Assembly (NCBI RefSeq): GCF_022133705.1
Contig: NZ_JAKNHJ010000002.1
Span: forward strand, 1-64,000
From: Varibaculum cambriense
GTDB lineage: Bacteria > Actinomycetota > Actinomycetes > Actinomycetales > Actinomycetaceae
Length of the DNA stretch: 64,000 nt
Direction of reading: 5' to 3'
Shown here one piece after another: positions 28,568 through 34,234 of the stretch. The notes beneath the pieces are model-generated. The model was not told the origin of the DNA. It was given only the letters and a program-made list of their open reading frames with translations, and ran no database searches. The stretch's first letter is position 1; every line of letters begins with the position of its first letter. The position numbers were made by a program, and so were the translations under genes.

Positions 28568-29593
28568 ATGGCTGAAATCTTTTATGACACTGACGCGGAT
28601 ATGGCCGCACTTGCGGGTAAGAAAGTTGCCATTATCGGTTACGGCTCGCAAGGTCACGCCCACGCCCTCAACCTGCGGGACAGCGGGGTGGAGGTAGTCG
28701 TGGGGCTGCGGGAAGGCTCGTCCTCGGTAGCTAAAGCTAAAGAGCAGGGGCTAGAGGTCAAATCGATTGAGCAGGCAACCTCCGAAGGGGATATCGTGAT
28801 GATTCTTGCTCCCGACCAGGTGCAGCGGACGGTTTATGCGCAGCAGATTTCCCCGAATCTGAAACCGGATGCCGCGCTTTTCTTCGCCCACGGCTTCAAT
28901 ATCCGTTTCGGTTACATTCAACCCGGTGCTGGCCACGACGTATGTATGGTGGCTCCGAAAGGACCCGGTCACAAGGTACGTGCCTCCTACGAGGCTGGCT
29001 ACGGTACTCCGGCAGTTATCGCGGTGGAACAGGACGAATCCGGTAACGCCTGGCAAGTAACTAAAGCCTATGCTAAAGCTCTGGGGGCAACTCGGGCAGG
29101 GGTAATTCAGACTACCTTTACCGAGGAAACCGAAACTGATCTTTTCGGGGAACAGGCAGTGCTCTGTGGCGGGGTATCGCACCTGATTCAAGCCGGTTTC
29201 GAGACATTGACCGAGGCTGGTTATCAACCGGAGATTGCCTATTTTGAGGTTTGCCACGAAATGAAACAGATCGTGGATCTGATCAACGAGGGCGGAATCA
29301 CCAAGCAGCGTTGGTCCTGTTCGGATACCGCCGAATACGGTGACTACGTGTCGGGGCCGCGAGTGATTACCGATCAGACCCGCCAGGCTATGCGCGACAT
29401 TTTGTCCGGTATTCGCGATGGTTCATTCGCGCGGCGTTTCATCGATGACCAAAACAATGGAGCTCAGGAGTTTAAACAGATGCGTGCAGCAGAAGAAGCC
29501 CACCCCATCGAGAAAGTAGGACGCGAACTGCGTGCCATGTTCTCGTGGAATCAAAGTGATGATGACTACCAGGAAGGGCAGGCACAGCGCTAA
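28568..29593 (+). CDS. ilvC: Ketol-acid reductoisomerase, class I
   Basis: A 341-residue NADPH-dependent enzyme that isomerises and reduces acetolactate and acetohydroxybutyrate. The Rossmann motif is [13 protein letters not shown] near residues 25-37, metal-binding acids lie in the TETDLFGEQ and [14 protein letters not shown] segments, and the C terminus ends in the usual [11 protein letters not shown]. Length is that of class I enzymes. Third gene of ilvBNC. A family I nested hairpin element lies just downstream. Confidence 0.97.
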
Positions 29594-29627: not shown

Positions 29628-29714
29628 GCCGGTTCCCGAAAAGTGTTCGGGGGACCCCGGTGAGCCTTGCTTCGCTCGGCTCAAGCCCCCTCTCACATCT
29701 TTTCGGGAACCGGC
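29628..29714. repeat. Family I nested-hairpin element, copy 1
   Basis: Outer arms GCCGGTTCCCGAAAAG (29628-29643) and CTTTTCGGGAACCGGC (29699-29714) pair perfectly over 16 bp. They enclose a 55-base core (29644-29698) that matches the core of copy 2 at 34162-34216 in 52 of 55 positions in the same orientation, although the arms of the two copies are unrelated. Within the core, CGGGG-ga-CCCCG (29648-29659) and GAGCC...GGCTC (29662-29682) can fold. It lies between ilvC and leuB. No T-run follows the arm, so it is not a standard terminator. Confidence 0.9.
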
Positions 29715-29816: not shown

Positions 29817-30872
29817 GTGGAGAAAACCATTAAGCTCGCGGTTATTCCCGGGGACGGGATTGGCAAAGAGGTAGTGGCCGAAGGGCTAAAGGTCATGGAC
29901 GCTGCCTTGACGGGTAGCGGAATCACGGTTGATAAAACCGAGTTTAATCTGGGGGCTGCTCGCTACCTGGAGACCGGAGAGATCCTGCCTGAGGCAGAGC
30001 TAGACAGGATTAAAAAGCATGACGCGATTTTGCTGGGGGCGGTCGGAGACCCCGCGGTTCCCTCGGGAGTGCTAGAACGCGGCTTGCTGCTCAAGCTACG
30101 TTTCAGTCTGGATCACTATGTGAATCTGCGTCCGGCTCGCTACTACCCAGGAGTCCCCACTCCACTGGCTAACCCCGGCGAGATTGACTTCGTGGTAGTG
30201 CGGGAAGGTACCGAGGGCTTGTACTGCGGTAACGGCGGGGCGATTCGGGTGGGTACCGATCAAGAAATCGCCACCGAAGTTTCCGTAAACACTGCCTTTG
30301 GAGTAGAGCGGGTGGTGCGTTTTGCCTTTTCCCAGGCTGCCAAGCGGCGCCAGCACGTTACCTTAGTGCATAAACATAATGTGCTGGTTCATGCCGGGCA
30401 TTTGTGGAGACGAATGGCAGAGCGGGTAGCGGAAGAATATCCTAAGGTTACCTGGGATTACGCGCACGTAGATGCCGCTACTATCTACCTGGTGCAAGAC
30501 CCGGGACGGTTTGACGTAATCGTTACCGACAACCTGTTCGGCGATATTTTAACCGACGAGGCAGGCGCGATTACCGGGGGAATTGGGCTGGCGGCCTCGG
30601 GAAATATCAACCCGGATCGTACCTTCCCCTCCATGTTTGAGCCGGTACATGGTTCTGCTCCCGATATCGCAGGTAAAGGGATTGCGGATCCCACGGCCAC
30701 GATTTCTTCGGTAGCAATGCTGCTAGAAAACGAGGGTGCAGGGCAGCAGGCAGACAATATCCGCGCCGCGATCGCTGCCGATATGGAGGAGCGCGCCCTC
30801 GCCGCCGAGCAAGGTCAGCCTTTGCAGCGCAGTACCAGCCAGATTGGAGATGCGATTGCTGCCCGCCTCTAG
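29817..30872 (+). CDS. leuB: 3-isopropylmalate dehydrogenase
   Basis: A 351-residue NAD-dependent beta-decarboxylating dehydrogenase of leucine synthesis. Seen: [12 protein letters not shown] near the start, substrate-binding Arg residues in [29 protein letters not shown], and the metal-binding acidic motif [17 protein letters not shown]. The length and [11 protein letters not shown] region fit actinobacterial LeuB better than isocitrate or tartrate dehydrogenase. GTG start, with GAGGAAGG about 20 bases before and no closer strong ribosome site. It is separated from ilvC by 223 bases that include a repeat element. Confidence 0.92.
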
Positions 30873-32235: not shown

Positions 32236-34107
32236 ATGGCTTATCCACTTCGTTCAAGAGCTTCCACTGCCGGTCGCAATATGGCAGGTGCCCGCTCACT
32301 GTGGCGCGCCACCGGCATGAGTGACAGTGATTTCGGGAAACCGATTATCGCCATTGCCAACTCTTTTACCCAATTTGTGCCGGGGCATGTACACCTAAAC
32401 CAGGTGTCGCCACTGGTAGCGCAGGCAATTAAAGATGCCGGTGGGGTGGCAAAAGAGTTCAACACCATTGCTATTGATGACGGAATTGCCATGGGGCATC
32501 AAGGGATGCTCTATTCTTTGCCTAGCCGGGAGATTATCGCGGACAGTGTGGAATATATGGTGAATGCTCACTGTGCGGACGCCCTAGTCTGTATCTCTAA
32601 CTGCGACAAGATTACGCCGGGAATGTTGATTGCCGCCATGCGGCTCAACATTCCGACGGTGTTTGTCTCCGGCGGTCCTATGGAGGCCGGGCGCGGAATC
32701 GACCCCAAAATGATTGTGGGACCGTCCCAAAACGGTCACGGCAACCTGATTACCGTAATGAATGCCACTGCTGACCAGGATATTTCCGACCAACAGCTGA
32801 GCGAGATTGAAAAAGCGGTTTGCCCCACCTGTGGTTCTTGTTCAGGAATGTTCACCGCTAACTCCATGAACTGCCTGACGGAGGCGCTGGGCTTGGCGCT
32901 GCCTGGAAACGGTTCTACCCTGGCGACGCATATTGCGCGCCGCGACCTGTTTACCCAGGCTGGCAAGCTCATCGTGCAGCTATGTGCGCGTTACTATGAC
33001 CAGGAGGAGGACGCGGTTTTGCCCCGGCAAATTGCCTCTCGCGAAGCCTTCCTTAACGCCATGAGCCTAGATATGGCAATGGGGGGTTCCTCTAACACGG
33101 TGTTGCACCTGTTGGCGGTTGCCCGCGAAGCCGGGGTGCGTTTTGACCTGGAAGATATTGCCCGCCTGGGGCGCAGTGTCCCTTGTCTGTGTAAAGCGGC
33201 ACCCAACCACAATGATTACCATATGGAGGACGTGCATCGTGCTGGAGGGATTCCGGCATTGCTGGGAGAACTTGACCGTGCCGGACTGTTAAACCGCGAG
33301 GTCACCTCGATCCATGCTCCCTCGTTAGAAAAATGGCTAGCCGATTGGGATGTGCGCGGCGGGTCTGCCACCGACCGGGCTGAAAAATTGTTTAAAGCGG
33401 CTCCCGGGGGAGTGCGCACCACCGAGCCATTCTCGACTACTAACCAGTGGAAAGACCTGGATACCGATGCGGTAAGTGGTTGTATCCGCGATACCGCTCA
33501 CGCCTATTCCGCCAATGGGGGACTGACGGTTTTGCGGGGAAATCTGGCAGAAAAAGGCGCCATTATTAAAGCCGCCGGAATCGACAGCGACCTGTACCAT
33601 TTCCGCGGTAACGCCATCGTGATGGAATCTCAGGAAGAGGCCATCGAGAAAATCCTAGACCATAGCGTTAAGCCTGGTCACGTGGTAGTGATTCGCTACG
33701 AAGGGCCAGCGGGTGGGCCGGGAATGCAGGAAATGCTGTACCCGACCTCCTTCCTAAAAGGGCGGGGTCTGGGCAAAAAATGCGCCCTCATCACTGATGG
33801 GCGTTTTTCGGGGGGCACCTCTGGGATCTCGGTGGGGCATATTTCTCCCGAGGCCGCTGATGGGGGCTTAATTGCCCTAATCGAGGACGGAGATGAAATC
33901 ATGATTGACGTCAATACCGAATCCTTGACCTTAGAGGTTCCGGAGGCGGAGCTTAATCGCCGCCGCGAACAGATGGAGCAGCGTCCTCGCCCCTATACGC
34001 CGCGTAGCCGCAAACGCACAGTCTCGGACGCCCTGAAACTCTACGCTGCCTGCGCTCTCAGTGCCGACCAGGGCGGCGCGCGTGATGTATCCAGAGTGAC
34101 CGGGTGA
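32236..34107 (+). CDS. ilvD: Dihydroxy-acid dehydratase
   Basis: A 623-residue iron-sulfur dehydratase, third common step of branched-chain synthesis. Cluster cysteines appear in [14 protein letters not shown] and [20 protein letters not shown], plus the Cys of the N-terminal region, and the carboxylated Lys/Mg site is near [11 protein letters not shown] longer frame from 32113 would overlap ilvE; the ATG at 32236 has GGGAGA six bases upstream and gives the usual family start ([20 protein letters not shown]). A family I repeat element follows the stop. Confidence 0.96.
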
Positions 34108-34143: not shown

Positions 34144-34234
34144 GGGCTGGCCGGCAAAAAGTACTCGGGGGACCCCGGTGAGCCTTGCTTCGCTCGGCTC
34201 AAGCCCCCTCTCGCATCTTTTTGCCGACCAGCCC
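34144..34234. repeat. Family I nested-hairpin element, copy 2
   Basis: Outer arms GGGCTGGCCGGCAAAAAG (34144-34161) and CTTTTTGCCGACCAGCCC (34217-34234) pair over 18 positions with one mismatch. They share no sequence with the arms of copy 1 apart from the A-run/T-run at the inner end, while the enclosed 55-base core (34162-34216) differs from copy 1 at three positions only. The element fills the gap between the convergent genes ilvD and the GtrA-family gene. Confidence 0.9.

Follow-up and report, generated by a model that had tools for sequence, protein, structure and literature searches.

The DNA analyzed here (the window) is a 64,000-nucleotide stretch of a Varibaculum cambriense genome that carries two copies of a hairpin-forming repeat. 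The first copy resides between open reading frames (ORFs) at positions 28568-29593 and 29817-30872, which we take to be ilvC and leuB. The component parts of both copies are as follows.

29628..29638, + strand: left copy-specific arm of the first copy, GCCGGTTCCCG
29639..29643, + strand: AAAAG clamp of the first copy, which pairs with CTTTT
29644..29698, + strand: core of the first copy, 55 nt, with an apical stem and asymmetric internal loops
29699..29703, + strand: CTTTT clamp of the first copy
29704..29714, + strand: right copy-specific arm of the first copy, CGGGAACCGGC
34144..34156, + strand: left arm of the second copy, located 3′ of an ORF ending at 34107
34157..34221, + strand: clamp, core, and clamp of the second copy, 65 nt
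34222..34234, + strand: right arm of the second copy

Nucleotides 29628-29643 of the first copy are complementary to nucleotides 29699-29714 at 16 of 16 positions, and nucleotides 34144-34161 of the second are complementary to nucleotides 34217-34234 at 17 of 18 positions (94%), wherein 55 nucleotides are enclosed in each case. The two cores differ at three positions, and the two arm pairs exhibit no visible kinship except for AAAAG/CTTTT. These observations bear out a preliminary description of this DNA, which had claimed that the cores match at 52 of 55 positions, that the arms of each copy are complementary, and that the arms of the two copies are unrelated beyond inner A and T runs, which correspond to the clamp. 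Because the clamp is part of the element, only the outer 11 bp of the first arm pair (29628-29638) and the outer 13 bp of the second (34144-34156) are copy-specific.

When folded as single-stranded DNA, the two copies are more stable than shuffled sequence, with z values of -5.8 and -3.8 (200 dinucleotide shuffles each). No intrinsic terminator, wherein a GC-rich stem is directly followed by a T run, is present within 29628-29714 or 34144-34234, and an Rfam scan of the window yielded no family over its gathering threshold except for one tRNA. A run of C nucleotides at the very start of the window (positions 1-55) is probably an assembly artifact of the contig end.

A hairpin repeat family in Varibaculum

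A search with an 83-bp element returned 8 to 16 matches in each of six Varibaculum genomes (G000 to G005, of which G001 is Varibaculum vaginae and G002 is V. cambriense) and none in 33 other genomes. Likewise, a covariance model built from 73 copies identified at least 120 matches across all six genomes (at least 20 in G000, 17 in G001, 18 in G002, 22 each in G003 and G004, and 21 in G005), whereas 145 further genomes from the bacterial family gave no match. The model counts are lower bounds, since 28 candidates were scored per genome and stricter filters were applied, and therefore their similarity among genomes should not be over-read. The hairpin family to which both window copies belong has thus been observed in Varibaculum alone. 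A pattern scan of contigs found 29 stretches, 26 of which lie in three Varibaculum-type assemblies, and we take the other three for chance occurrences. The repeat is also carried by FQLW01000004-6, contigs titled Tissierella sp. Marseille-P2918 that are probably mislabeled Varibaculum. Three viral contigs yielded one unrelated sequence, an alpha element (see below) searched together with its flanks matched no plasmid or phage, and no paper on the Varibaculum hairpin repeat was noticed among the titles listed in literature searches.

The general layout of the unit is an arm, AAAAG, the core, CTTTT, and a complementary arm. Two subfamilies can be distinguished, called alpha (14-bp arms) and beta (12-bp arms), and both window copies belong to beta. 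Alpha arms are near GGG(T/G)CTGGCTCGGT/ACCGGCCGCG(A/C)CCC at many loci, with only 11 distinct 12-nt arm sets among 38 copies, and alpha offers the clearest case of spread as a complete unit. Most beta elements span 65 nt, clamps included, and have locus-specific arms. Cores are either short (~55 nt) or long (~110-120 nt), the long forms spanning 122 to 130 nt from clamp to clamp, and they share conserved asymmetric internal loops and an apical hairpin. Four of the five clamp pairs are the same in all 73 aligned copies and the fifth in 72. This alignment holds 73 of 91 copies found with a regular expression, from which long forms and duplicates were left out; the expression misses degraded copies and variants, and its 91 copies cover only part of the 120 model matches.

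Long cores (loci L031, L061, L143, L148, and L161) contain an extra folded stretch of ~70-100 nt that is partly conserved among copies, and no Rfam family exceeds its threshold at L143, L148, or L161. An Rfam scan of 10 loci gave only a tRNA over threshold, and the one sub-threshold match that overlaps an element (L064) scored 18.2 bits versus a threshold of 58.

Among 91 elements, 63 had a gene identified by a codon-score gene caller and 28 had no called gene nearby; a gene 3′ end occurs no more than 150 bp from the element on the left in 40 cases and on the right in 11, compared with 8 and 3 for 5′ ends. For the 31 elements with genes on both sides, tandem neighbors follow the plus strand five times and the minus strand ten times. 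No replication-strand bias is evident in G003 (11/11) or G004 (11/11). On contigs C1 of G003 and C4 of G004, the region around the point opposite dnaA is free of model matches for 261 kb and 319 kb, respectively, to either side. The widest gaps between matches (0.59 and 0.64 Mb) are centered 32 and 2 kb off this point (P = 0.0035 and 0.0009), values to be read with the understanding that G003 and G004 are not independent, that the copy lists are lower bounds, and that G004 was taken as one circle.

Other repeats occupy some of the same neighborhoods. The elements described here often have a hairpin of another family (GAATTCGGAAAACG...CGTTTTCCGAATTC) beside them, as near G000:C12:120304 and at L163 and L167, and at L163 the neighbor of this hairpin is half an alpha element. 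The outer arms of this second family also seem to differ among copies, and 13 distinct strings fit its strict pattern in the DNA around the copies. At L147 (G000:C73:43070-44200), a third family (AAATCCG...CGGATTT) is nested in the apex of a core.

Length, pairing, and covariation of the arms

Pairing in beta arms ranges from 0.83 to 0.98 at positions 1 to 12 and falls to 0.36, the control level, at position 13, and alpha pairing continues to position 14 and reaches background at position 15. The fact that pairing ends abruptly at a fixed arm length indicates that the arms belong to the unit and are not arbitrary palindromes. A scoring rule for arm length places 30 of 53 beta copies at 11 to 14 bp, with outliers that are both shorter and longer. 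Beta left arms are G-rich in 49 copies and C-rich in 4. In alpha, one outer pair, at position 11, covaries between T-A and G-C, wherein pairing is 0.97 with its own partner versus 0.55 when partners are swapped.

The arm covariation for which the preliminary description had proposed a check is present. Across the 73 aligned copies, 86.5% of cells are paired, compared with 73.1% when the 3′ letters are shuffled and 35-52% when partners are slid, and doubly changed cells number 306 versus 99.5 in shuffles (0 of 500 as high), wherein the shuffles treat related copies as independent. Changes on both sides are found in 22 of 33 pairs; inside the core, covariation is found at the two pairs adjoining the clamp and in the apical stem. 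Beta arms pair at 10.7 of 12 positions with their own partner and at 6.7 of 12 with that of another copy. The signal is weaker within orthologous loci, where 13 positions changed on both sides versus 5.0 expected (11 loci; 0 of 5000 permutations), or 5 versus 2.3 expected with stricter arm similarity (9 loci; 197 of 5000). Ortholog pairs with one to four arm differences show 44 one-sided changes versus 3 that are compensated. Arm pairing is thus preserved, yet it is not tightly at rest. Two observations that had been named in advance as evidence against such an element, namely copies with unpaired arms and the same arms at all copies, are each encountered in part: five of 53 beta copies have at most 7 Watson–Crick pairs of 12, and alpha copies draw on the small number of arm sets noted above, with beta arms remaining locus-specific.

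Covariation between stem arms is commonly taken as a sign of functional RNA, and selected RNA pairing should produce more G-U than A-C mismatches on the working strand. Among beta arms, excluding copies with fewer than 8 Watson–Crick pairs, mismatches are transition-rich and strand-symmetric: the 62 transition mismatches comprise 27 G-U and 35 A-C on the plus strand (p = 0.37), compared with 11 transversion mismatches, and locus-averaged values are 13.0 for G-U and 13.1 for A-C. Before that cut, the beta tally is 31 G-U, 41 A-C, and 28 other mismatches in 600 cells. The lack of a G-U excess on either strand argues against RNA-level selection on the arms. Of the preliminary proposal that selection maintains pairing, then, the covariation stands and selection at the level of RNA is not supported.

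This balance of G-U and A-C mismatches weighs against an explanation wherein the hairpin is a functional RNA (a 3′-end stabilizer or similar) whose arms covary through selection for RNA pairing. Such a role would fit the abundance of nearby gene 3′ ends, the better folding of the minus strand in 69 of 73 copies, the larger contribution of beta arms on the minus strand (34 copies, versus 10 on the plus strand), and the presence of conserved internal loops together with a covarying apical stem. However, alpha arms show the opposite tendency (larger contribution on the plus strand in 19 copies, versus 8 on the minus strand), core orientation is flipped between species at some loci, no Rfam family exceeds its threshold at an element, and small arm changes within loci are mainly one-sided. 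We consider an RNA function of this type to be quite improbable.

Histories of the core and the arms

Between loci, the mean identity of the arms is 9.5, 10.7, 10.4, and 7.9 of 24 positions where core identity is 65, 62-64, 58-61, and <58 of 65, respectively, such that more similar cores are not accompanied by more similar arms. Seven loci with unlike arms hold, in a total of eight copies, one identical 65-bp core, and 20 of 30 between-locus pairs with identical cores share at most 10 of 24 arm letters. Even so, the arms at identical-core loci resemble each other slightly more than expected for unrelated sequence, and some are recognizably alike (e.g., GGGTYGGG).

Orthologous loci permit the two parts to be followed separately. 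At one orthologous place, a long form (129 nt) in G000 and a short form (65 nt) in G004 have arms that are identical at 24 of 24 positions, and the place orthologous to 34157-34221 of the window holds a 129-nt version in G003. Sets of short, long, and hybrid cores occur at the L021, 34156, L023, and L077 loci, where 17 to 22 of 24 arm letters are the same. Because the short core has a stretch that is missing from the long core, the difference between them is not a simple deletion.

The core of the first window copy is inverted relative to its orthologs in G004 and V. cambriense G002, with both arms in place. The same orientation difference is found in comparison with V. vaginae, whose core is interrupted, and with G005, which retains half a copy. 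With the core inverted, the window and G004 agree at 65 of 65 core and 21 of 24 arm positions; the corresponding values are 65 of 65 and 19 of 24 for L050 versus L082, and 59 of 65 and 17 of 24 for 34156 versus L042. The window and G004 copies are identical across the 83-bp query. Among 20 ortholog loci, eight yield a comparison with the core inverted (beta-beta, 4 of 12; alpha-alpha, 1 of 6), although some of the eight compare alpha with beta and may represent replacement instead of inversion, and some ortholog pairs may be paralogous since their flanks hold other repeats. These comparisons show that the core behaves as a module that is inverted in place or swapped for another type in relatives while the arms remain at the locus, and they support separate histories for core and arms.

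The preliminary description had also offered insertion into pre-existing palindromes, by which the core would be a mobile sequence that enters a perfect palindrome, or replaces its loop, and the arms would be target DNA. This explanation is consistent with the mostly unlike arms of identical cores, with the occurrence of GGGTCGACCC in V. cambriense where G000 has GGGTCGGGCCGT-core-ACGGCTCGACCC, and with IS1272, which is described as targeting stem-loops without target-site duplications (TSDs) (PMC5678879). As originally worded, it conflicts with the fixed arm length (12 or 14 bp), with the G-richness common to left arms, and with alpha arms that are alike at many loci and travel with the element; what survives of it is the separate histories of core and arms.

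Empty sites were sought by comparing five C12 copies with V. cambriense and by scanning regex-found copies for closed flanks, wherein flanks of 60 bases or fewer were dropped and three matches were returned. No clean uninterrupted palindrome, which by the preliminary description would support insertion if present at orthologous loci without the core, was seen in these comparisons, and the one suggestive allele also fits a deletion scar. The observed empty alleles can also be read as the result of deletion between short repeats. Overall, we judge insertion into palindromes to be unlikely. About equally unlikely is a previously undescribed mode of mobile DNA by which a core of ~55-120 nt would enter the tips of resident hairpins as a copy, in either orientation, guided by the clamp and hairpin shape instead of the target sequence, with the locus-specific arms untouched and no TSD produced.

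A single cause for both inversion and exchange with the arms kept would be a site-specific recombinase that acts at inverted arm-clamp sites to invert cores and to exchange them between loci (cassette exchange). Six protein families were profile-searched in the six genomes (PF01797, NF033551, PF02371 in G003 only, PF13751, PF00589, and PF00239), and no shared, dedicated transposase or recombinase was found among them. PF01797 (Y1/HUH TnpA-REP) matched none of the six genomes (control positive in 5 of 14), NF033551 (IS1182-type) matched none over the cut-off, with one weak match in G003, and PF13751 matched none (control positive in only 1 of 14). Tyrosine recombinases (PF00589), among which an integron attC or similar site would call for a dedicated integrase common to the carriers, are found in all six genomes, as are serine recombinases. 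However, G005 has only two tyrosine recombinase matches, presumably the two Xer proteins, and G000 has a single serine recombinase match, with two to nine in the others. Moreover, because the arms are unlike between loci, the sole common recognition site would be the clamp and core ends. We regard such a recombinase as very unlikely.

An autonomous parent element was also sought in the six genomes by means of exact CTCGYATCTTTT ends, which exclude variants such as the CTCACATC of a window copy, and the ends inspected gave no parent. The candidates with an unmatched left end that were inspected in G000, G003, and G004 turned out to be long elements, alpha elements, an ortholog in decay (L034), the element with a nested hairpin at L147, or chance matches (L154 and L158).

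Proposed template switching and comparison with known systems

The reading we favor, with a probability of about one half, is that of a dispersed Varibaculum hairpin repeat with an invertible, exchangeable core, whose arms are complementary mainly through arm-to-arm copying by template switching. During replication, the paired arms would form a DNA hairpin by folding back on each other, and a switch of template from one arm to the other would copy one onto its partner, rendering them complementary whatever their sequence. The same event would flip the spacer, which here is the core. Template switching has been reported to homogenize arms and invert the spacer (PMC8604942), and stems kept paired by this process have also been reported (PMC8794818). 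Core exchange between loci, which template switching leaves unexplained, might more speculatively proceed by ectopic gene conversion or by IS1272-type transposition that replaces a loop or stem-loop, with machinery that is perhaps now absent or not recognized.

Two null results limit simple forms of the template-switching and conversion ideas. A pattern search of the DNA around the copies found no core turned into a perfect palindrome, and thus homogenization would have to halt at the clamp or be countered by selection. In addition, cores at different loci resemble each other no more closely when they share a genome than when they come from different genomes (beta, difference of 0.11 bases, 100 of 300 shuffles as high; alpha, 0.17, 76 of 300), which speaks against frequent gene conversion within genomes. 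The favored reading is also weakened by the residual likeness of arms at identical-core loci, by the mostly one-sided nature of small arm changes within loci, and by the fact that the families searched revealed no mobilizing enzyme.

The strong covariation observed here accompanies strand-symmetric mismatches, spacer inversions, and core exchange, and the family is thus a natural test case in which DNA-level processes may mimic RNA conservation. The separate histories of core and arms are explained by neither standard transposition nor gene conversion alone.

Several known systems share parts of this pattern. REP/REPIN sequences with TnpA-REP (RAYT) are described as short, multicopy palindromes, some of them imperfect with a bulge (PMC8266576, PMC3116915). 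The Varibaculum repeat differs in that no Y1 transposase match is present in the six genomes, the loop side is conserved and the beta arms are locus-specific, and there is no leading/lagging bias in G003 and G004. IS1272/IS1182 elements resemble it in the use of a structure as a possible target, with replacement in the same place and no TSD; however, no IS1182-type transposase exceeds the cut-off in the six Varibaculum genomes, and IS1272 is described as removing the target stem-loop (PMC5678879), whereas the stem of the Varibaculum repeat stays.

Template switching at quasipalindromes is reported to yield homogenized arms and an inverted spacer like those considered above (PMC8604942), but it is a mutational process and not an element, and it operates without spacer exchange between loci. 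Bacterial stem-loop repeat families are likewise intergenic and have a common secondary structure, and the abstract by which they are compared here makes no mention of separate core and arm histories (PMC2267715). Classical MITEs also carry terminal inverted repeats, to which the arms and AAAAG clamp correspond. No clear TSD is evident in alpha, the subfamily in which it was sought, where direct repeats of length 4 or more flank 11 of 38 copies versus 7.8 of 38 in the control. The Varibaculum repeat therefore works like a dispersed hairpin of the REP or MITE type, yet lacks tested hallmarks of both (no Y1 gene, no clear alpha TSD, and no IS1182-type enzyme). We file it as a variant of dispersed stem-loop repeats, one whose swappable core inside locus-bound, paired flanks represents an unusual form of evolution for repeated DNA.
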